Assembly (NCBI GenBank): GCA_029289265.1
Contig: JARFTX010000010.1
Span: 1-64,000 of the forward strand
Source: Gammaproteobacteria bacterium
Lineage (GTDB): Bacteria > Pseudomonadota > Gammaproteobacteria > Burkholderiales > Rhodocyclaceae
Reading direction: 5' to 3'
DNA length: 64,000 nucleotides
A program made the translations under genes and the position numbers. Under the pieces are notes generated by a model. The model was not told the DNA's origin. It did not search any database and worked only from the letters and a program-made list of their open reading frames with translations. Below are positions 47,429 through 58,525 of this stretch, one piece after another (the stretch's first letter is position 1; each line of letters begins with the position of its first letter).

Positions 47429-48823
47429 ATGACAGACACCTCCGCATCGCAACCGGCCAAGGCCTGGTCGGGCCGCTTCTCAGAACCTGTGTCCGATCTG
47501 GTCAAACGTTATACCGCCTCGGTGACTTTCGACCAGCGCATGGCGCTCCAGGATATCCGCGGATCGCTCGCCCACGCGAAGATGCTCGCCCGCCAGGGCA
47601 TCATCGGCGCAGCCGACCTGGCCGACATCGAGCGCGGCATGGCGCAGATCGCCGGCGAGATCGAGCGTGGCGAGTTTCACTGGAACCTCGACGACGAGGA
47701 CGTGCATCTCAACATCGAGAAGCGGCTCACCGCGCTGGTCGGTGCGGCGGGCAAGCGCCTGCACACCGGGCGCAGCCGCAACGACCAGGTTGCGACCGAC
47801 ATCCGCCTGTGGCTGCGCGACGCGATCGACCAGATCCTCGCGCTGATCGGCGAGTTCCAGGAGCGGCTGCTCGATCTCGCCGAGCAGCACGCAGCGACGC
47901 CGATGCCGGGTTTCACGCACCTGCAGGTCGCCCAGCCGGTGACCTTCGGCCACCACCTGATGGCCTACTACGAGATGACGCGGCGCGACGCCGAGCGCTT
48001 CGCCGACGCCCGTCGGCGAGTGAATCGCCTGCCCCTCGGCTCGGCCGCGCTCGCCGGCACCAGCTACCCGATCGACCGTGAGTTCGTCGCGCGCGAGCTG
48101 GGTTTCGACGAGATCTGCGCGAACTCGCTCGACGCGGTGAGCGACCGCGACTTCGCGATCGAATTCTGCGCCGCCTCGGCGCTGCTGATGACGCACCTGT
48201 CGCGCCTCTCCGAGGAGCTCATCCTGTGGATGAGCCCGCGCGTGGGCTTCATCGACCTCGCCGACCGCTTCTGCACCGGCTCGAGCATCATGCCGCAGAA
48301 GCGCAACCCCGACGTGCCCGAGCTGGTGCGCGGCAAGACCGGGCGCGTCAATGGCAGCCTGGTCGCGCTGCTCACGCTGATGAAGGGCCAGCCGCTTGCC
48401 TACAACAAGGACAATCAGGAAGACAAGGAGCCGCTGTTCGACACCGCCGACACGGTGATCGACACGCTGCGCATCTATGCGGACATGGTCGGCGGCATCC
48501 GCGTCAAGGCCGACGCGATGCGCGCCGCGCTCGCGCAGGGCTACGCGACCGCGACCGACCTCGCCGACTATCTGGTGAAGAAGGGCCTGCCGTTCCGCGA
48601 TGCCCACGAAGCCGTCGCCCTCGCGGTGCGCGCGGCCGAGGACTCGGGGCGCGACCTGCCGGAACTCGCTCTCGACGAGCTGCGCAAGTTCTCCACGCTG
48701 ATCGAGGCGGACATCTTCGACGTTCTGACGGTCGAAGGTTCGTTGGCCTCGCGCAACCACGCGGGCGGCACCGCGCCCGATCAGGTGCGGGCTGCGGTCG
48801 CCGCCGCGCGCGCGCGCCGCTGA
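47429..48823 (+). CDS. argH: Argininosuccinate lyase
   Basis: 464 residues. Last step of arginine synthesis, splitting argininosuccinate to arginine and fumarate. Motifs: [50 protein letters not shown] and the fumarase-superfamily signature [12 protein letters not shown] with the catalytic serine. Divergent from the algZ-type kinase gene, a common layout in proteobacteria. Confidence 0.97.
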
Positions 48824-48909
48824 CACGCGGGCCGCGTCGTCACAGGCGGCGCAGCCGCACTTTAGAGGCACGAGAAAGGGACGGACGGCTGACGAATCGA
48901 GGAGGTTCG

Positions 48910-50190
<1,281 letters not shown>

Positions 50191-50256
50191 GCCTGACCCG
50201 GTGGATGTCCCTGCCTCATTGTGACACCACGTCCTTCAGGGTCAGGAGGTAGCCCA

Positions 50257-51165
50257 GTGAGCGACGACCCCGTGCTCGACACGCTTTCCAGGGCCCTGCG
50301 CGCCGCCTGCGGCGACGGCTTCGCCGTTCAGGGTTGCGAGCCGGCGCGAGGGGGCTGCATCCACGACGCCTTCGTCGTCCGCGGCGACGACACGCGCTTC
50401 TTCGTCAAGATGAACAGCGCCGACGCCCTGCCGATGTTCGAGGCCGAGGCCGACGGGCTTGCTGCGATCGCCGCGAGCGGCGCCTTTCGCACGCCGCAGG
50501 TCGTCGGCTCGGGCGCAGACGAGGTCCACGCCTGGCTGATCCTCGAGCACATCGACCTGCGCCCGCTCGGCGCGGCCGGCGAGGGCACCCGCTTCGCCGA
50601 GGCCCTGGCCGCCCTGCACCAGGCCGAGGGCCCGGAGTTCGGCTGGCACCGCGACAACTTCATCGGCAGTACGCCGCAGCAGAACGCCCCGGAGGCGAAC
50701 TGGGCGCATTTCTTCGTCAACCGCCGACTGCGCCCGCAGTTCGAGCTGGCGCGACGAGCCGGCCTCGACAACGCGGCGTTCAATCAGGCCCAGCGGATGA
50801 TGACGCGAGTTCCGGCCCTGTTTCTCGACTACCGGCCAAGGCCCGCGCTGCTGCACGGCGACCTGTGGCACGGCAATGCGGCCGTGGATGCGGCCGGCAC
50901 CCCGGTCGTGTTCGATCCCGCCTGCCACTATGGCGACCGCGAATCCGACCTGGCGATGAGCGAACTCTTCGGCGGCTTTCCGTCCGCCTTCTACCTCACC
51001 TACCGCAAGCTCGCGCCGCTCGACGCCGACTACGAGCTGCGCAAGCCGCTCTACAGCCTGTACCACCTCCTCAACCACCTCAACCTGTTCGGTAGAGGCT
51101 ACCTGCGCGAAGTCTTGCGGCTCACCGCCAAGCTCGCCGACGCGCTGTCCTCGCGCGGTCTTTGA
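50257..51165 (+). CDS. Fructosamine kinase family protein
   Basis: 302 residues, GTG start with a strong AGGAGGT. The family phosphorylates ketoamines on glycated proteins or sugars as a repair step. Visible motifs: GGCIHDAFVV and FFVKMN near the ATP site, GWHRDNFIGSTPQ, LLHGDLWHGNAAVD (Brenner motif) and VFDPACHYGDRESDLAMSELFGGF. It likely shares a transcript with the upstream protein kinase. The 149-bp gap downstream shows no gene. Confidence 0.9.
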   Translation: MSDDPVLDTLSRALRAACGDGFAVQGCEPARGGCIHDAFVVRGDDTRFFVKMNSADALPMFEAEADGLAAIAASGAFRTPQVVGSGADEVHAWLILEHIDLRPLGAAGEGTRFAEALAALHQAEGPEFGWHRDNFIGSTPQQNAPEANWAHFFVNRRLRPQFELARRAGLDNAAFNQAQRMMTRVPALFLDYRPRPALLHGDLWHGNAAVDAAGTPVVFDPACHYGDRESDLAMSELFGGFPSAFYLTYRKLAPLDADYELRKPLYSLYHLLNHLNLFGRGYLREVLRLTAKLADALSSRGL

Positions 51166-51314
51166 GGCGCCGGCGAGGCCGGCCCCGCCCCCCCGTCCGT
51201 CGTGAGGGCGACTACGCCGACTTGGTCCGACGCTCCGTCGGGGGTGCGTGCGAATGCGCCGACCTGCCGCGATCGCGGCCTCGCTGTAGCGAACACCCTG
51301 CAAGCCGTCTCTGT

Positions 51315-52403
51315 TCACTCGCTGCGCAGCGCCTTGTGAGCGAGGTGATAGACGAGCAGCGGCAACGGCATGCGTAGCCAGTGGCTGCGCACGAACGCAA
51401 GCCAGCGGGCGAAGCGCGTCGCCCGGCTTGCGCACGAGGGATGATCGGGCAGCAGCACACGCTCGAGCATCCACCGGCGCGGTCCGGCCAGGACCGGCGT
51501 CCCCAACGCGGCGCGCAGGCCCAATCGGGCCTCTTCCGGCACCGCCGTCCCGTACACGCGCCGGGACTGCTCCATCGCATCGAGCAGCGGCCGGGCCAGA
51601 CCCATCTCCATCGCCCGCACCTGTATGCGCGGCCAGAAACCGGCGTCCACGCCGAACTCGCCGAACAGGGTGTGCAGGTCGTAGAGGTCGCGCAGTCCCT
51701 TGTGGAACTCGTTGAAGAACAGGTGGCAGGCGGAGTGGATCACCATGTCCTCGGGCGCGAGCACCGCGTACATGCCCGCTCCCCGTTGGCCTGCCGGCAC
51801 GGCGCGCGCGAGCAGCGCGGCGGCGTCGGGCACGATCCCCGAGGTGGGGGGAACGATGGTGTGGTGCACGTCGATGAGGGTGCAGCGGTCCTTGTGCTGC
51901 ATGGGCGGCAGCTCGTGCATCCACTTGCGGTAGTAGCGCTGGTCGTAGCGGTTGAGTCCCTCCGGAATCCAGCCGCCGCCCATCAGCGCGTCCTCGACGC
52001 GACCGAGCGCGTGGGACGGCACGAGGATGTCGACATCGTTGAAGGTACGGCCGAGGGCAGCGCGACGGCCGCTCATGCAATAGGCGGCGCCCTTGAGCAA
52101 CACCACCGGCACCTCGAGCGGCCCGAGGGCGGCGGCGATGTGGTCGAGCTCCCAGAGCACGGCCTCGCGGTGGCGTTGCGACAGCCGCCTGGCGATGTCC
52201 AGGTGCCGGCGCGCCTCGGGCGGCGCCGAATCGAGCCGTCCGGCCGCATCGAGGCGTTCGTGCAACTGGCCGAGCAAGTCCGCGCCACGCGCCTCGCCGA
52301 TCAGCCGCTCCCAGCGTTTGAGATCGAAGCTGCGCACCTCGTCGGGCTCGCGCAGGGTCGCGGCAAGCAGGCTGTCCTGGCGCGGCGCCGCCACCCGGCT
52401 CAC
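51315..52403 (-). CDS. Nucleotidyltransferase family protein of the HPr-rel-A type cassette
   Basis: 362 residues, GTG start overlapping the stop of the kinase gene (GTGA). The N-terminal half is helical; a nucleotidyltransferase core contains LLKGAAYCMSGRRA and TFNDVDILVPS with D123 and D125 as likely metal ligands, as in the NTP_transf_5 group (uncharacterised nucleotidyltransferases). A histidine-rich segment (IDVHHTIVP, IHSACHLFFNEFHKGL) follows. Expected to transfer a nucleotide or act on a nucleotide-linked substrate. Last gene of the four-gene cassette. Confidence 0.8.
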   Translation of the reverse strand: MSRVAAPRQDSLLAATLREPDEVRSFDLKRWERLIGEARGADLLGQLHERLDAAGRLDSAPPEARRHLDIARRLSQRHREAVLWELDHIAAALGPLEVPVVLLKGAAYCMSGRRAALGRTFNDVDILVPSHALGRVEDALMGGGWIPEGLNRYDQRYYRKWMHELPPMQHKDRCTLIDVHHTIVPPTSGIVPDAAALLARAVPAGQRGAGMYAVLAPEDMVIHSACHLFFNEFHKGLRDLYDLHTLFGEFGVDAGFWPRIQVRAMEMGLARPLLDAMEQSRRVYGTAVPEEARLGLRAALGTPVLAGPRRWMLERVLLPDHPSCASRATRFARWLAFVRSHWLRMPLPLLVYHLAHKALRSE

Positions 52404-53314
52404 CGCGGCTCGCCTCGCGCGAGACGGTCGAGGAGCGGCACCACCTGGTCGAGATGGCCGTAGCGCACGCGCCGGATCTCGCACCGATCCACGAGCCCCG
52501 CCAGCGCATCGAATGCGTCGCCCCCCAGGAAGGCGTAGTTGAATGCGTGGCGGACCATCTCCATGAAGGCGTGCGCCTTGCCTTCCGTCTCGACCTCGAG
52601 TGCGGCGCCCTCCGAGTACTTGGGAAACACCAGCCAGGCCGGCATCGCCGGCTCGCCCCGGCGCAGCACGCTGTCACGCGGCGGACGCACGTGGGCAACC
52701 GCGCCCTTGGTGGTATCGGGGCAGACCTCGCCGACCTCGAGCCCGCCGAGTGCGCGGATCACCTCGATCGACCGGTTCTTCAGGCTGATCGGGCGCGCGA
52801 CCGGGACCACCCGACCGTCATCGAGCCGGACCAATCCCAGCTCGTCCGACAACAGTCGCCAGCCGGCGTGCACCAGGCCGGCACACAGCGTGCTCTTGCC
52901 CGAGCCCGGATCGGCGGCCAGAAGCAGCGCGCTGCCATCGCGCTCGAGCACCGCCGCATGCAGGATGAGGTGGTCGTGGGCGTGGGTGGACACCACCCAG
53001 TTCAGGCCCCACTCGAGCATGGCGAAGGCCTGGTGGCGCGGCAGCGGCTTGAACGGGATGCGCCCGTCGCACGAGAAGATGACTTGCGGCCGCAGGATGC
53101 GCCTGAGCACCGACGGCGGTTCGACCCGGACCTCGAAGTCGACGAAAGCGTCCGATTCGATTGCGTCGAAATCGGCATAGAGACGATGCAGTCCGCTGGA
53201 GACCTGGCTGATCGGCGACTTCACCCGCACGACGAAGGGGCCGCAAGGCAGGACGACGCCGGGTCCTGCGAGCTGATCCGCGAACCGGCGCGACGCGATG
53301 GCCGAGACCTTCAC
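52400..53314 (-). CDS. HprK-related kinase A
   Basis: 304 residues, GTG start overlapping the PqqD-like gene stop. The core matches HPr kinase/phosphorylase: ILHAAVLERDGSALLLAADPGSGKSTLCAGL, with the P-loop around K140, then LLSDELGLVRLDDG and ISLKNRSIEVI. Unlike true HprK there is no phosphotransferase-system HPr gene nearby, and the N-terminus (VVLPCGPFVVRVKSPI) is of the related-kinase type. NCBI family naming places such proteins with a PqqD-like protein in an HPr-rel-A system. The substrate is not known to me. Confidence 0.83.
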   Translation of the reverse strand: MKVSAIASRRFADQLAGPGVVLPCGPFVVRVKSPISQVSSGLHRLYADFDAIESDAFVDFEVRVEPPSVLRRILRPQVIFSCDGRIPFKPLPRHQAFAMLEWGLNWVVSTHAHDHLILHAAVLERDGSALLLAADPGSGKSTLCAGLVHAGWRLLSDELGLVRLDDGRVVPVARPISLKNRSIEVIRALGGLEVGEVCPDTTKGAVAHVRPPRDSVLRRGEPAMPAWLVFPKYSEGAALEVETEGKAHAFMEMVRHAFNYAFLGGDAFDALAGLVDRCEIRRVRYGHLDQVVPLLDRLARGEPR

Positions 53315-53541
53315 GCGACTCGCTCTAGGGCCCCGATAAGGACCAGATGCTCGATGATCGGCTCGGCGTCCGCGAGAAGATCGGCCCGATCGGCCGAGCA
53401 GCCCGCATCCGCAGCGCAGGCTTCGAGCATTGCGGCGCATTCCGCGGGAAGCAGCGAGGTCTGCGCCGAACTCGGTGCAAACACGACGCAACCATCATCC
53501 CAGGCACGCCATCGCACCTCACGCCTGAACGAGTGGGTCAC
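53311..53541 (-). CDS. PqqD-like small protein of the HPr-rel-A system
   Basis: 76 residues from GTG 53541; a longer frame upstream is Arg/Ser-rich and not preferred. The sequence REVRWRAWDDGCVVFAPSSAQTSLL followed by an acidic helical part resembles PqqD-type RiPP recognition elements, which bind leader peptides and present them to modifying enzymes. Its stop overlaps the GTG of the HprK-like gene, so the two are translationally coupled. Ribosome site is weak (AGAAG). Confidence 0.75.
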   Translation of the reverse strand: MTHSFRREVRWRAWDDGCVVFAPSSAQTSLLPAECAAMLEACAADAGCSADRADLLADAEPIIEHLVLIGALERVA

Positions 53542-53616
53542 GCTTCTACTGCTGCGCCGTGCGTCGCCCGTGTGTCCGTACTGCGAACAATGCCGTCCCG
53601 GACCGACGTCCAACGC

Positions 53617-54336
53617 TCAGTATTGCTGCGTCCAGTCGTCACTGTTGCGCGAGATCCCGTTGAAGCACCACAGCCCCCCGCCCTGATCGTAGACATCGAC
53701 CTCTTCCTTGAAGCGGGTCAGGTTCGAGCAGCCGCCCACCACGAGGTCGTTGGCAAACGCCGTCTGGAAGGCCGAAATCACGAGGTGCGGCGCGTTGTGC
53801 ATGGAGGGGTAGCGCGAGCCGTAGTAGGTCGCATTGAGCAGCGCGGCGACGGCATGAAATACGATCGCATGAAGCGGGCCGCACTGGCCGGTCAGAAAAG
53901 TGTCGGAGACCGGAATCGAGCCGGCGCCCGGCCCGAGGGATCCCAGGCTGCGGTCCTTGCCGGGCCGGAAGAACACGGTAGCCTTCTTGCCGCCCTTGGC
54001 GCCAAAGAAAACCTGATTGAAGGACGCGCTGGGGCCGTACTGCGGAATGTACTCGGTCCACTTCACGAGTCCATGCGGGCTGCGCCACCAGAATCCCGGA
54101 CTGCAACCGCACATTGCCGGCTCGCCATGCCGTGAAAGCGCCGCGGACGCGGTCTCGGATCCGCACTGGCCGATTCCCGCTCCGAGCGCAGAGCGTCCCG
54201 GCAGGGTCATGAGTACACCCGCGCCCGCAAGGCCAGCGGTCGTGAGCCGGCGCCGAGCGTGGTCGGTTTGCCCTTGCGCCGCCGGGTCATCCGGCTGCGT
54301 TCGGGCGTCGCGGTCCTCGCGTACGTCGTCGCTCAT
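53617..54336 (-). CDS. Tat-type exported Cys-rich protein with a GYWK-like domain, heading the HPr-rel-A cassette
   Basis: 239 residues. An unusually long acidic n-region precedes R28-R-R-L-T-T-A-G and a hydrophobic core (34-46), suggesting a twin-arginine signal cleaved near ALGA (50-53). The mature part opens with cysteines 58, 76 and 78; C76-G-C-S-P-G-F-W83 followed by HGLVKWTEY, a later DTFLTG, and FHAVAALLNATYYG resembles the extracellular domain seen in proteins with TPGYWKNH...HAVAALLNA motifs. Further cysteines lie at GQCGP, GGCSN and LWCFNG. It precedes the PqqD-like gene by 75 bp and is the obvious candidate target of the cassette. That role is inferred. Confidence 0.65.
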   Translation of the reverse strand: MSDDVREDRDARTQPDDPAAQGQTDHARRRLTTAGLAGAGVLMTLPGRSALGAGIGQCGSETASAALSRHGEPAMCGCSPGFWWRSPHGLVKWTEYIPQYGPSASFNQVFFGAKGGKKATVFFRPGKDRSLGSLGPGAGSIPVSDTFLTGQCGPLHAIVFHAVAALLNATYYGSRYPSMHNAPHLVISAFQTAFANDLVVGGCSNLTRFKEEVDVYDQGGGLWCFNGISRNSDDWTQQY

Positions 54337-54660
54337 GAAAACACTCCGATTCTACAAGCCTACGATGGAAAGCCTAGCACTCGGCCGTGATGCCGTGCGT
54401 GCGATTGTACACGGTCCAGGCCACATTCCATGCACTCGAGAAATCCCAAGCAACTATCACGCCGGAAGATTCATGGCGTTGATAAATTGGCGAATTCATT
54501 GACGCACCCACGCCAACGGTCGCCGCACTGTAAAAAAATCCGACATCTGGCGCGAAGCCGACCGACCGCGCGCATCACGCCGCTGGCATTCGTGCTATGT
54601 TGCCGGAAACGGCCTGGAGGGTGCGGCGCCCGCCGACCCGCGGCCCAGAGGAGGACCGAC
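54337..54660. other. 324-bp divergent intergenic region
   Basis: Separates the exported Cys-rich protein (minus strand) from a small membrane protein (plus strand). The middle part, about 54430-54550, is AT-richer than the rest of the window and must hold both promoters. It contains the 17-bp motif at 54529-54545. No gene is convincing here. Confidence 0.5.
54529..54545. promoter_or_regulatory. 17-bp motif TGTAAA-N4-TCCGACA, copy 2
   Basis: TGTAAAAAAATCCGACA has the same flanks as the copy at 18883-18899 and sits 115 bp before the plus-strand small membrane gene and 192 bp before the minus-strand exported-protein gene. Both copies lie in AT-richer intergenic DNA about 120 bp from a plus-strand start. 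Confidence 0.4.
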
Positions 54661-54867
54661 ATGAATCACCGCACCCTGAACCGAGTGGGCTCCGCCCTGG
54701 GTATCGGCGGAATAGCAATCTGCGCCGCCAGCACGCTTGGTCGCGCCGGCGGCATTTACTACGTATTGGGCTACGAGGTCGGCACGATCTTCGGCGCGGG
54801 CGTGGCGCTGATTGCGGTCGCCTGTCTCGTCAAGCTCGAGGTGCTGGTGTCCCGCGGTGGCGGCTGA
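54661..54867 (+). CDS. Small two-helix membrane protein, function unknown
   Basis: 68 residues, start MNHRTLNRVGSALGIGG with GAGGAGG 8 nt upstream. Two hydrophobic segments (about 9-26 and 37-58) are separated by GRAGGIYYVLGYEVG. The frame is open further upstream but that part is Arg-rich and not protein-like. It is convergent with grxD. I do not recognise the family. Confidence 0.6.
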   Translation: MNHRTLNRVGSALGIGGIAICAASTLGRAGGIYYVLGYEVGTIFGAGVALIAVACLVKLEVLVSRGGG

Positions 54868-54899
54868 TTCGATCTTCCCGCGCCGCCGCCACGGTCGGC

Positions 54900-55232
54900 T
54901 CAGCTCGATGCGGCGATCACACCGGCCTTGGCGAGCATATCCTGCAACTCGCCCGTCTCGTACATTTCCTTGACGATGTCACAGCCGCCGACGAATTCGC
55001 CCTGGATGTAGAGCTGCGGAATCGTCGGCCAGTTGGCGTATTCCTTGATGCCGCTGCGGACGGCCTCGTCCTCGAGGACGTTGATCGCGGCGACCTCGGT
55101 GAGGCCGCAGTTCCTGAGCACCTGGACTACCGCAGCCGAGAAGCCGCACTGAGGAAACTGCGGGGTGCCCTTCATGTAGAGCACGACGGGATGGGAGGAA
55201 ACCTGCTCGCGAATGACGCTCTGAATGTCCAT
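54900..55232 (-). CDS. grxD: Monothiol glutaredoxin
   Basis: 110 residues. The monothiol active site is C29-G-F-S in KGTPQFPQCGFS, with WPTIPQLYI and GGCDIVKEMYETGEL forming the GSH site. Such proteins carry [2Fe-2S] clusters and hand them to other proteins. It is the last gene in a minus-strand run; 92 bp separate it from the acyl-CoA synthetase gene. Confidence 0.96.
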   Translation of the reverse strand: MDIQSVIREQVSSHPVVLYMKGTPQFPQCGFSAAVVQVLRNCGLTEVAAINVLEDEAVRSGIKEYANWPTIPQLYIQGEFVGGCDIVKEMYETGELQDMLAKAGVIAASS

Positions 55233-55324
55233 GGATCGGTCCAGAAACTGAGTGAATTAGTCGGACAAGTCTAGGGGCGGCCGGCCAGGCCGTCAAGCAG
55301 CGGCCGGGAAAGCCGGCGTGCCGT

Positions 55325-56986
55325 TCAACCATTGCGCTCGCGCGCGCGCTCCTCCTCACGCAGCCGCAGGATCCGGCGTTGGACCTTGCCGGTGGTCGTC
55401 ATCGGCAACTCGTCGATGAACTCGATCTCCTTCGGATACTCGTAGGGCGCGAGCTGGCCACGCACATGTGTCTGCAGCGCCTCGACCAGTTCGGGCGAGG
55501 GCACATGGCCGGCCGTGAGCACGACGTAGGCCTTGACCACTGCGCCGCGCTCGGGGTCGGGCTTGGGCACGACGGCGGCGTTGGCGACGGCGGGGTGGCG
55601 CACCAGGCAGTTCTCGACCTCGGACGGGCCGATGCGGTAACCGGCCGCCTTGAACATGTCGTCGGCGCGCCCCTTGTACCAGAGGTAGCCGTCCTCGTCG
55701 CACACGGCCAGATCGCCGGTGCGGCACCAGTCGCCGGTGAACTTGCGAGCGGTTCCCGCGGGATTGCGCCAATAGCCCAAGAAGAACACGGGATCGGGGT
55801 CGCCCTGGCGGTCGAAGCGGTTAACCGCGACCTCGCCCAGTTCGCCTGCCGGCACGACCTGCCCATCGTCGTCGATCACGGCGACACGATGGCCTGGATA
55901 GGGACGCCCCATGGAGCCGGCCCGCGCGGGCCAGTCGTCGGTGCTGTTGCCCACGATGTAATTGATCTCGGTCTGCCCGAACATCTCGTTCACGGTGACG
56001 CCCAGGGCCTCGCGGCACCACGCGAAGACCGTATCGCCGACCGCCTCGCCGGCACTCATGATCGCGCGCAGGCGCAGATCGAATCGCTCGCGCGGACGGG
56101 GGAAGGCCTTCATCATCGCCTTGAGCGCGGTCGGAAACAGAAAGGTGTTGGTCACCCCATGGCGCGACATCAAGTCGAAGGCCTTCTCGGCCGAGAAGCG
56201 GCCGCGGTAGCCGACCAGTGGCTGGCCGTAATAGAGCACCGGCAGCAGCACGTCCATCAGCCCGCCGGTCCACGCCCAGTCCGCGGGGGACCAGAATACG
56301 TCGCCGTCGCGCGGGAAACCGTTCTGGCTGGCAGCAAAGCCGGGAAGATTGCCAAGCAGCGCCTGATGCGGCATCAGCGCGCCTTTGGGTGGCCCGGTCG
56401 TGCCGCTGGTGTAGATCAGCACGGCGGGATCGACTGCGAGGGTCTTTTCCGGCGGGAAGCGATCGGCCTCGCAAGCCATCAGCACCGCCCAGTCCACGAC
56501 CTCGGAGCCCCCGGCGACGAGATCGACACCGATGAGCGCGTGCAACTCCGGGCACCGTTCGCGCACCGCCTGCAGCGCCTCCAGTGCGCTGCCCTCGGCA
56601 ATCGCCGCGACCGCCTCGCTATTCTGCAACCGGTACTCGAGCGCATCGGGACCGAACAGGATCGACATGGGCATCGCGACCGCGCCCATCCGATACAACG
56701 CCATGTGCGCGACGGCGGTCTCGAAACGCTGGGGCAGCAGGATCGCGACGCGGTCTCCCCGCTTGATTCCGAGCTCGCGCAGACCCCCGGCCAGCCGCTC
56801 GGCGGCCGACAACAGATCGGAGTAGCTGTAGCGCGCACACCCGCCGCGCTCGTCTTCGATGATGAGGGCGGTGCGGGCAGGGTCACCTGCCCAGCGCTGA
56901 CAACATACCTCGAAGATGCTGAAGCGCTCCGGCACCTGCCAGCGAAACCCGCGGTGAATCTCCTCGTAACGGTCGATCGCCGCCAT
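55325..56986 (-). CDS. AMP-dependent acyl-CoA synthetase
   Basis: 553 residues from MAAIDRYEEIHRGF, with AGGAGGAG upstream. ANL superfamily: phosphate loop YTSGTTGPPKGALMPH, SAGEAVGD, the FGQTEINYIVGN motif, the GDLAVCDEDGYLWYKGRADDMFKAAGYRI hinge and the catalytic lysine in TTTGKVQRR. It activates a carboxylic acid to its CoA ester via an adenylate. The WSPADWAWTGG motif resembles medium-chain/acetyl-type enzymes. The substrate cannot be fixed from sequence. Confidence 0.9.
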   Translation of the reverse strand: MAAIDRYEEIHRGFRWQVPERFSIFEVCCQRWAGDPARTALIIEDERGGCARYSYSDLLSAAERLAGGLRELGIKRGDRVAILLPQRFETAVAHMALYRMGAVAMPMSILFGPDALEYRLQNSEAVAAIAEGSALEALQAVRERCPELHALIGVDLVAGGSEVVDWAVLMACEADRFPPEKTLAVDPAVLIYTSGTTGPPKGALMPHQALLGNLPGFAASQNGFPRDGDVFWSPADWAWTGGLMDVLLPVLYYGQPLVGYRGRFSAEKAFDLMSRHGVTNTFLFPTALKAMMKAFPRPRERFDLRLRAIMSAGEAVGDTVFAWCREALGVTVNEMFGQTEINYIVGNSTDDWPARAGSMGRPYPGHRVAVIDDDGQVVPAGELGEVAVNRFDRQGDPDPVFFLGYWRNPAGTARKFTGDWCRTGDLAVCDEDGYLWYKGRADDMFKAAGYRIGPSEVENCLVRHPAVANAAVVPKPDPERGAVVKAYVVLTAGHVPSPELVEALQTHVRGQLAPYEYPKEIEFIDELPMTTTGKVQRRILRLREEERARERNG

Positions 56987-57109
56987 AGTCCTCTCCTCCT
57001 CCCGGTCGTTCGCCAAGTTCGGTGAGCGAAGCCTAGCACGCGGGCGCATGCGCCGCCGCACGGGAAAGCCCGGCACGGTCGCCGGGCGCTTGCGCACGCG
57101 GGCCTCAGG

Positions 57110-57694
57110 TCACGACGCGCCGAAGAGCAGCGGCATGAAGTTGCCGCGCAGCCCCGCCAGCACGATCAGACCGATCTGCAGCAGCAGCAGCGCGACCAGC
57201 GGCGACAGGTCGATGTTCGCGACCAGCGGGATGACGCGGCGGAACGGCCGCAGAAAGGGCTCGGCGAGCCCGTGGAAGATCGGTGCCGCGGGCGCGTGGG
57301 GGCTGACCCAGGACAGCACGGCCGAAACCAGGATGACCGCGAAGATCAGGTAGATCGCCATCCGCGCAAGCTCGACCAGACCGACCCCCCACAGGCCCAG
57401 CAATACGCCCGCGGGCCCGCCGTCCATCTGAGCGCCGCGCAGCGACAGCTCGATGAAGACGTGGGCTGTCTGAAAGGCCCAGGCGGGCAGCAGGCTCGCC
57501 AGATCGAGACCGAACAGGCCGGGGATCGCGCGCCGCAGCGGGCGGACGATCCAGTCCGTGGTCGCCAAAACGAACTGGCCGATCTGATTGCGAAAAGACA
57601 CGCGCTGCACCTGCATGAAGAAGCGCGCGAGCAGCAGCAGCGTGATGAAACCGAAGGCGACGTTGAGGATGAGGAGCAGGATGCCGGTAGCCAT
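57110..57694 (-). CDS. yggT: YggT family integral membrane protein
   Basis: 194 residues with two copies of the YggT unit: ARFFMQVQRVSFRNQIGQFVLATTDWIVRPLRRAIPG and later WVSPHAPAAPIFHGLAEPFLRPFRRVIPL. About four membrane segments. Function is not settled; the gene almost always follows proC and yggS, as here (6 bp from proC). In some bacteria it is linked to osmotic tolerance or cell division. Confidence 0.92.
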   Translation of the reverse strand: MATGILLLILNVAFGFITLLLLARFFMQVQRVSFRNQIGQFVLATTDWIVRPLRRAIPGLFGLDLASLLPAWAFQTAHVFIELSLRGAQMDGGPAGVLLGLWGVGLVELARMAIYLIFAVILVSAVLSWVSPHAPAAPIFHGLAEPFLRPFRRVIPLVANIDLSPLVALLLLQIGLIVLAGLRGNFMPLLFGAS

Positions 57695-57700
57695 GGCGCG

Positions 57701-58525
57701 TCAATCCCGCCCGAGTTCGTCGCCGAGCGCGCATCCGCGCGCCTCGGCGGCGGCGACGGCACGCACGATGGCATCGAAGAAGCCCGCCTCGCGCAGGCTC
57801 GCGAGCGCCGCCTCGGTGGTGCCGCCCTTGGAGGTGACGCGCTCGCGGAGCACCGCCGGTGAGTCGTCCGAACCGGCGGCGAGTCGGGCCGCCCCGAGCA
57901 CCGTGTCGACCGCCAGCCGCCGCGCGGAGGCTGGCTCGAAACCGAGCGCTGCGCCCGCCGCCTCGAGCGCCTCGATGAAGTGGAAGACATAGGCCGGACC
58001 GCTGCCGGACACGGCCGTGACCGCGTCCATCTTCGCCTCGTCGCCGATCCAGACCACGCCGCCGACCGCGCCGAGGATGCGCTCGGCGGCCGCGCGCCCT
58101 GCGGCGTCGACTGCGGGGTCGGCGAACACTCCGCTCACGCCGGCTCCAATCAATGCGGGCGTGTTCGGCATCGCCCGCACCAGACGCCGGTAACCTCCCG
58201 CCCAACGCGCAATGTCGGCGCTGCGCAGGCCGGCCGCGATGCTGAGGAGCAGTTGCCCGGAGAGCCGCTGCGCGAGTGGCGCGAGCGCGGCCCGCATCTG
58301 CTGCGGCTTGACCGCGAGCACCAGCACGTCGCAGTCGAGCAGCGCCTCGTCGACTGCGCCGACCGCACGCACGCCGAAACGCCCCGCCAGGCGCTCGCGG
58401 CACGCATCGGACGGATCCACGACCTGCACGTCGCCCGCCGCGAAACCGCGCTCCAGCATTCCGCCGATCAGCGCGGTAGCCATGTTGCCGCCGCCGATGA
58501 AGGAAACCCGCAACCCTTCGCTCAC
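57701..58525 (-). CDS. proC: Pyrroline-5-carboxylate reductase
   Basis: 274 residues, GTG start overlapping the yggS stop (GTGA). Last step of proline synthesis. NAD(P)-binding FIGGGNMATALIGGML, VLAVKPQQM, RAMPNTPALIGAGVSG, and the C-terminal SGSGPAYVFHFIEAL and VTSKGGTTEAAL are diagnostic. Confidence 0.97.
   Translation of the reverse strand: MSEGLRVSFIGGGNMATALIGGMLERGFAAGDVQVVDPSDACRERLAGRFGVRAVGAVDEALLDCDVLVLAVKPQQMRAALAPLAQRLSGQLLLSIAAGLRSADIARWAGGYRRLVRAMPNTPALIGAGVSGVFADPAVDAAGRAAAERILGAVGGVVWIGDEAKMDAVTAVSGSGPAYVFHFIEALEAAGAALGFEPASARRLAVDTVLGAARLAAGSDDSPAVLRERVTSKGGTTEAALASLREAGFFDAIVRAVAAAEARGCALGDELGRD

Follow-up and report, generated by a model that had tools for sequence, protein, structure and literature searches.

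A widespread four-gene cassette with an HprK-related kinase and a candidate exported substrate in Pseudomonadota

Gene content and spread of the cassette

The first 64,000 nucleotides of contig JARFTX010000010.1 (assembly GCA_029289265.1) from a gammaproteobacterium of the Rhodocyclaceae, referred to here as the window, carry a cassette of four genes that encode, in order, an exported protein, a PqqD-like protein, an HprK-related kinase A and a nucleotidyltransferase of the NTP_transf_5 family (Table 1). A first-pass annotation made from the sequence alone had described these genes as a single-strand cassette joined by three GTGA-type overlaps or a short gap and had proposed that they form a modification system acting on the exported protein. 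All four genes lie on the minus strand between 51,315 and 54,336. The overlaps number two, at 53,311–53,314 between the PqqD-like and kinase genes and at 52,400–52,403 between the kinase and nucleotidyltransferase genes, whereas the exported protein gene and the PqqD-like gene are separated by a gap, of 3 bases if the latter starts at its TTG and of 75 bases if it starts at its GTG. The GTG at 53,541 is more likely to be the start of the PqqD-like gene than the TTG at 53,613. The comparative evidence for the exported protein as the substrate of the system is strong and is set out below.

The window kinase scored 374.7 bits against TIGR04352 (HprK_rel_A; cut-off 200) and the nucleotidyltransferase 159.8 bits against PF14907 (NTP_transf_5; cut-off 31.2, E 1e-46), in agreement with the identities proposed for both in the first pass. 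The exported protein, whose ATG is preceded by GGAG, matched no Pfam or NCBIfam family, and a scan of 42 cassette members against the same collections left the mature exported domain without any family. Its six cysteines all lie behind the leader, and the mature domain contains the motifs CGCSPGFWW and AALLNA. Homologs of the exported protein adjoin HprK in all 13 of the other genomes that gave a match among 101 searched.

Table 1. Features of the cassette in the window
Feature	Position	Strand	Remarks
Exported substrate protein	53617..54336	minus	ATG start, 239 residues; leader and six-Cys mature domain
Twin-arginine-type leader (RRRLTTAGLAGAGVLMTLPGRSALGA)	54178..54258	minus	common to other cassettes; leader profile A1
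Serine motif S60-x3-S64-x3-S68	54133..54159	minus	behind predicted signal cleavage site; proposed modification sites
PqqD-like protein, candidate RRE (RiPP recognition element)	53311..53541 (longest open reading frame, from TTG, to 53613)	minus	76 residues from GTG
HprK-related kinase A	52400..53314	minus	GTG start, 304 residues; H119, K140 (P-loop) and D157 present
NTP_transf_5 nucleotidyltransferase	51315..52403	minus	GTG start, 362 residues; K104-G105, D123-x-D125 and D178 present

Scores above the TIGR04352 cut-off were obtained for 44 of the 150 relatives searched, for 41 of 369 class genomes, for 61 of 398 phylum genomes and for none of 14 controls, the relative, class and phylum samples overlapping. 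Kinase loci were gathered as the window plus sets of 7, 44 and 80, giving 132, and one (L212, on the same contig as L049) was dropped to leave 131; the kinase pieces of one genome (G668), which lie at contig edges, stayed outside this set. A profile of the leader of the exported protein matched a gene in 122 of the 131 distinct loci. At 119 of them a leader-bearing open reading frame (ORF) lies upstream on the same strand and ends 80–700 bases before the kinase match, while the match lies farther upstream in L181 and L216 and downstream of the kinase in L085. Inspection by eye added two further loci, L092 with a leader of similar kind and L070, at a contig edge, with the mature part alone. The first-pass annotation had named in advance, as evidence against its proposal, enzymes that occur widely without an exported partner, and the kinase did not show that pattern. 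The nucleotidyltransferase was present in 124 of the 131 loci (E ≤ 1e-20) and the PqqD-like protein was detected by profile in 118. Because the gene order recurs at more than 100 other loci, the arrangement is more than a chance one, and the cassette is a real and widespread system.

Some variation in arrangement was observed. One genome carries two cassettes on separate contigs (L084 and L095 in G130, contigs C99 and C22), one with a substrate related to that of the window (type 1, defined below) and the other not. At L243 (4234–4737, minus strand), a locus fetched later than the others, the substrate and PqqD-like genes are oriented opposite to the kinase. Two kinase homologs below cut-off, at L096 and L097, have an NTP_transf_5-like gene (by eye) upstream rather than downstream, with a PqqD-like ORF between that gene and the kinase homolog in L097; this arrangement is possibly a sister system.

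The neighbors of the cassette in the window are of housekeeping type. They include genes for fructosamine kinase and grx4, and argH and a Ser/Thr-kinase-like gene were recognized among them by eye; the fructosamine kinase and Ser/Thr-kinase-like genes flank the cassette at 48,226–51,165. At least three genes of this flanking block are common to 18 of the 131 loci, the window included, which suggests a preferred chromosomal place for the cassette.

A shared leader and conserved serines in divergent exported proteins

Alignment of 37 leaders showed an invariant Arg-Arg pair, mostly within RRR(L/F), followed by a hydrophobic core, often with P-V and T-L, and an end that is often S-R-P-(A/V)-(L/W)-(A/G), giving the consensus RRRLxxxxxxxxPVxxTLxSxPALA. 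The leader looks like a twin-arginine translocation (Tat) signal, and TatC is encoded in the genome. The profile built from this alignment (A1), which includes the window leader among its 37 sequences, gave 40.5 bits for the window leader and no second match in the genome at E ≤ 0.01. A 28-position leader profile searched against the 150 relatives gave 65 matches at E ≤ 0.01, 40 of them at cassettes and 25 elsewhere. The top 35 matches (at least 26.2 bits) all lie at cassettes, and the best match away from a cassette reached 25.7 bits, as judged by comparing positions by eye. Most of the sequences behind the leader and domain profiles came from cassette loci, so the counts on the positive side are partly circular and the informative side is the low score of the leader matches away from cassettes. 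Of the 119 candidate segments that seeded the leader profile, six (L070, L085, L092, L216, L225 and L232) were not recovered as upstream matches, and six upstream matches came from loci outside the seeds (L046, L176, L201, L202, L221 and L228).

Behind the leader, the mature part is hypervariable and ranges from approximately 9 to 242 residues with a median of 153. The shortest cores, about 9–13 residues in L176 and about 18–22 in L228, depend on the assumed cleavage site. The simple rule used for cleavage misplaced the site in a few proteins (L172, L084 and L163), and therefore mature lengths and the positions +2 and +3 discussed below are approximate. A short natural-product peptide was considered as the general product and dropped, as cores of 18 residues or fewer occurred in two measured substrates alone (L176 and L228). 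A lipoprotein was likewise dropped after inspection by eye, a cysteine standing right behind a lipobox-like stretch in only a few substrates.

Relatives of the window exported protein, termed type 1, comprised 63 mature parts; L070 and L092 are also type 1 and were left off this list. Alignment A2, which holds 42 of the 63 at a mean column identity of 16%, has two invariant columns, and both are serines, corresponding to S64 and S68 of the window protein. S60 is present in at least 90% of the aligned sequences, and the resulting motif is CxxSxxxSGNxS. The spacing SxxxSxxxS is found in 55 of the 63 type-1 proteins, including 13 of the 21 outside A2. The eight proteins that lack it were all among those 21, so the invariance of the serines is limited to the 42 chosen sequences, and the motif is frequent in type-1 proteins, not universal. 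The remaining substrates, 58 proteins, were dereplicated to 51, and 34 of these carry a serine at position +2 or +3 counted from the predicted start of the mature part; shuffled sequences gave a mean of 10.2, and none of 5000 shuffles reached 34. One leader-bearing locus among the 122 (L216) was outside the serine statistics as its anchor had been set wrongly.

The distribution of the type-1 domain was also compared between cassettes and other places. In the 369 class genomes the domain gave 38 matches, 31 of them within 3 kb of a kinase and 7 elsewhere, so that the opposite pattern, an exported protein occurring mostly away from the enzymes, which the first pass had likewise named in advance as breaking the link, was not observed. 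All 31 copies adjoining a kinase start at profile positions 2–5, and six of the seven others start at positions 19–25, that is, behind the serine motif; for these start positions it should be considered that the domain profile was itself derived from cassette copies. When the 45 residues before the PGYW-type motif were searched, SxxxSxxxS was absent from all six. Five of these six motif-less copies have a Sec-type-looking signal and no visible leader, the sixth (L235) being cut by a contig edge, and four of the six genomes gave no kinase match. In these proteins (L234–L238 and L240) the CSPGYW/AALLNA domain is C-terminal within different proteins, most of which are longer. The seventh copy, L239 (G444, contig C20, 2405–3601, minus strand), is an unlinked second substrate with the leader and an SGMMSGNVS motif in a genome whose cassette is on a different contig, which fits recognition of the substrate in trans.

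A different role for the leader deserves consideration here. The PqqD-like protein could be a signal-peptide chaperone, of the kind known for Tat redox enzymes, that retains the precursor for export quality control, with the kinase and nucleotidyltransferase regulating or energizing this retention and the cargo left unmodified. Chaperones of the Tat system that recognize twin-arginine signal peptides are well established (PMC3712460, PMC3316669), and no feature of the substrates is more general than the leader. However, such a role leaves unexplained the SxxxSxxxS motif of the 55 divergent proteins, the serines at +2 or +3 and the absence of the motif outside cassettes, and we consider it unlikely. 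Modification of the exported protein itself is the reading that we favor.

Catalytic residues and known relatives

The residues expected of working enzymes are intact across the loci. Kinase residues H119, K140 and D157 were found in 131 of 131 aligned sequences, and nucleotidyltransferase residues K104-G105, D123-x-D125 and D178 in 124 of 124, where D123, D125 and D178 are presumably the acidic triad. Against solved structures, the kinase profile matched HPr kinase (1jb1, E 7e-4), and the mature-domain and nucleotidyltransferase profiles found no usable relative. An AlphaFold model of the mature exported domain built from seven sequences had a mean pLDDT (predicted local distance difference test score) of 36.5 and was not used. 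For the PqqD-like family, TIGR04353 matched all 31 sequences of alignment A3 at E ≤ 0.01, A3 consisting of 30 proteins picked from high scorers plus a trimmed copy of the window protein. The profile of this family matched the RREs of lasso peptides weakly (TfuB1, E 0.0068; TbiB1, E 0.03), and it also matched designed repeat proteins, one of which ranked first. RRE here denotes the recognition element of ribosomally synthesized and post-translationally modified peptides (RiPPs).

The first pass knew of no established biochemistry for such a gene set, and this statement needs correction, as two groups of studied systems combine related parts. The lasso-peptide kinases PadeK, ThcoK and SyanK phosphorylate or polyphosphorylate a serine (PMC9266682). 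In the same work PsmN is described as placing a hexose on phosphoserine or as nucleotidylating it, the choice between the two being left unresolved there. Paeninodin- and pseudomycoidin-type lasso peptides share with the cassette an HprK-like kinase with the His, Lys and Asp residues, a nucleotidyltransferase and a discrete RRE. The lasso HprK-like kinases carry a His-Lys-Asp-Asp motif (PMC9266682), whereas the position after D157 in the cassette kinases is glutamate (E158) in 131 of 131 sequences in place of the second aspartate. The target serine of the lasso peptides is C-terminal, in contrast to the proposed serines near the N-terminus of the mature part. A lasso peptide as the product was rejected, no lasso cyclase (macrolactam synthetase) or B2 protease being seen by eye beside the window cassette. 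An asparagine-synthase-type neighbor from another locus matched the XrtA amidotransferase TIGR03108.

A closer relative is the linear polyphosphorylated peptide (LPP) system of Bacillota, described in 2026 (lppAKBSDN), which comprises a precursor, an RRE, an HprK-like kinase, an NTP transferase, a SipW-like peptidase and an exporter (PMC13381572). LppK polyphosphorylates Ser3 of the core, beside the leader, and LPP clusters were first seen inside capsular polysaccharide loci (PMC13381572). The two systems are alike in having a discrete RRE, an HprK-like kinase and an NTP transferase, the PqqD-like part being weak in the window, and in having a precursor whose N-terminus is conserved and whose C-terminus varies and a target serine, in our case a proposed one, just behind the leader. 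They differ in the leader itself, as the LPP leader has the form YxxPxVLxHQxIxFETxxS, a motif not encountered in the twin-arginine-type leader of the cassette. They also differ in processing, since LPP clusters encode a dedicated SipW-like peptidase and an MsbA-like exporter. Neither was recognized by eye among the ORFs at 48,000–58,500 of the window or among the recurrent neighbor clusters, for which nine representatives were tested and not every neighbor was named; no profile search was made for either family. The cassette was not classed as an LPP system because no such peptidase or exporter was recognized and the leader motif is not that of LPP. The main text of the LPP paper makes no mention of Pseudomonadota, Proteobacteria, Gram-negative, twin-arginine or Tat (PMC13381572).

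Bufferins and other RiPPs with signal peptides resemble the cassette in the RRE-associated modification of precursors that bear an export signal. They differ from it in having a Sec signal and an oxidative iron enzyme, and they are not known to involve a kinase. DUF2063 and DUF2282 are the subject of a passage on RiPPs with signal peptides (PMC12710340).

NCBIfam already names two families for an "HPr-rel-A system": TIGR04352, of which the window kinase is a member, and TIGR04353, the PqqD family, which is named the peptide chaperone of the system. The suggestion that the system is undescribed needs qualification on this account. No paper on the HPr-rel-A system was found among the matches listed for open-licence PubMed Central articles with the family names or with combinations of PqqD, exosortase and PEP-CTERM.

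These relatives also bear on which enzyme would act on the exported protein. The nucleotidyltransferase might modify it directly by AMPylation or UMPylation, with the kinase merely supplying or removing phosphate elsewhere; its catalytic residues are conserved throughout, and PsmN has been left open between nucleotidyl- and hexosyltransferase (PMC9266682). In both studied relatives, however, the kinase is the primary modifier, and PsmN acts on a phosphorylated serine, so that direct action appears quite unlikely compared with a kinase-first order.

Exopolysaccharide context and proposed mechanism

An exosortase (PF09721) was found in 42 of the 44 kinase-bearing genomes among the 150 relatives and in 30 of the 106 others (Fisher p 2.8e-15, uncorrected for descent). 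Neighbor clusters of XrtA/PEP-CTERM type, belonging to TIGR03108, TIGR02917, TIGR03087, TIGR03088 and TIGR03013, occur in the fetched stretch of 38 of the 131 loci, with one representative tested per cluster; none was seen in the window region 48,000–58,500. These observations are suggestive of a link between the cassette and exopolysaccharide. They could also mean that exopolysaccharide or exosortase functions are what the kinase and nucleotidyltransferase control, via some other target, the exported protein being a co-transcribed passenger. The partner gene, however, is present in 122 of the 131 loci, whereas the XrtA-type neighbors occur in a minority of loci and were not seen around the window cassette. 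A passenger would hardly retain one leader and its serines while the remaining protein changes, and we regard this explanation as very unlikely.

We thus favor a modification system in which RRE-guided serine phosphorylation and tailoring by the nucleotidyltransferase would act on a Tat-exported surface protein, and we assign this reading a probability of roughly 60%. In this model, the exported precursor would be made first and its leader, which would also serve as the twin-arginine signal peptide, would be bound by the PqqD-like RRE; a single segment appears to fill both roles. By analogy with the lasso-peptide and LPP kinases, the HprK-like kinase would then phosphorylate, and perhaps polyphosphorylate, serines just behind the cleavage site, namely S60, S64 and S68 in the window protein and, in other substrates, the serines at +2 or +3. 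The NTP_transf_5 enzyme might subsequently place a nucleotide or a hexose on the phosphoserine, after which the modified product would leave the cell by way of Tat and lose its leader to the general signal peptidase, exposing a modified N-terminus. The cassette tracks with exosortase genomes, and the globular domain recurs in long proteins of surface type; a surface or matrix component associated with exopolysaccharide is therefore the probable product. The first-pass proposal of the exported protein as the modification target is thus supported by comparison, and for the chemistry we infer these steps from the studied relatives.

Several observations weigh against this interpretation. The PqqD-like identity given in the first pass is backed by a TIGR04353 match at E 1.2e-5, but the score of 26.2 bits lies below the cut-off of 35, indicating a degenerate member. 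The AlphaFold2 model of the window protein (E-E-E-H-E-H, low confidence at a mean pLDDT of 62) gave no fold match at E ≤ 0.001, with TbiB1 at rank 27 (E 1.3), and the RRE assignment consequently rests on sequence. The PqqD-like protein went undetected by profile in 13 of the 131 loci, although a small ORF could be seen by eye in six of these, clear in L046 and weak in L048, L049, L051, L076 and L214. Neither leader nor substrate was found in seven loci (L183, at a contig edge, and L204, L205, L225, L227, L230 and L232). The support from 12 held-out loci of the phylum sample, fetched later, of which 11 had the leader and the twelfth is cut by a contig end, is limited by the fact that these loci were drawn from groups also represented in the training set. 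To this the partial circularity of the leader and domain counts has to be added. SxxxSxxxS, missing from the eight type-1 proteins mentioned above, occurs in 6 of 58 non-type-1 substrates, and a serine at +2 or +3, for which shuffled sequences were the comparison, could partly reflect signal peptidase preference. Furthermore, the exosortase statistic ignores phylogeny, the exosortase of this genome is on a contig other than that of the cassette, and LppN, the NTP transferase of the LPP system, had no detectable effect in a heterologous host (PMC13381572).

A broader proposal is that these proteins form a class of modified exported proteins across Pseudomonadota in which one N-terminal element would serve an RRE as its recognition leader and at the same time act as Tat signal peptide, and in which the kinase and nucleotidyltransferase would build, at the new N-terminus, a serine-phosphate-sugar or serine-phosphate-nucleotide linkage that couples the protein to the exopolysaccharide produced by exosortase-A/EPS loci; we put it forward as a doubtful extension of the model.

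With the present analysis, gene families known here only by name acquire a probable substrate, a recognition element and candidate sites of modification, which makes the system testable. If the favored reading is true, RRE-guided serine phosphorylation would extend beyond the small peptides of Bacillota to proteins that Pseudomonadota export. It would also suggest that one segment can serve as both leader peptide and export signal and would offer a lead on how proteins might be joined to exosortase-type exopolysaccharide.

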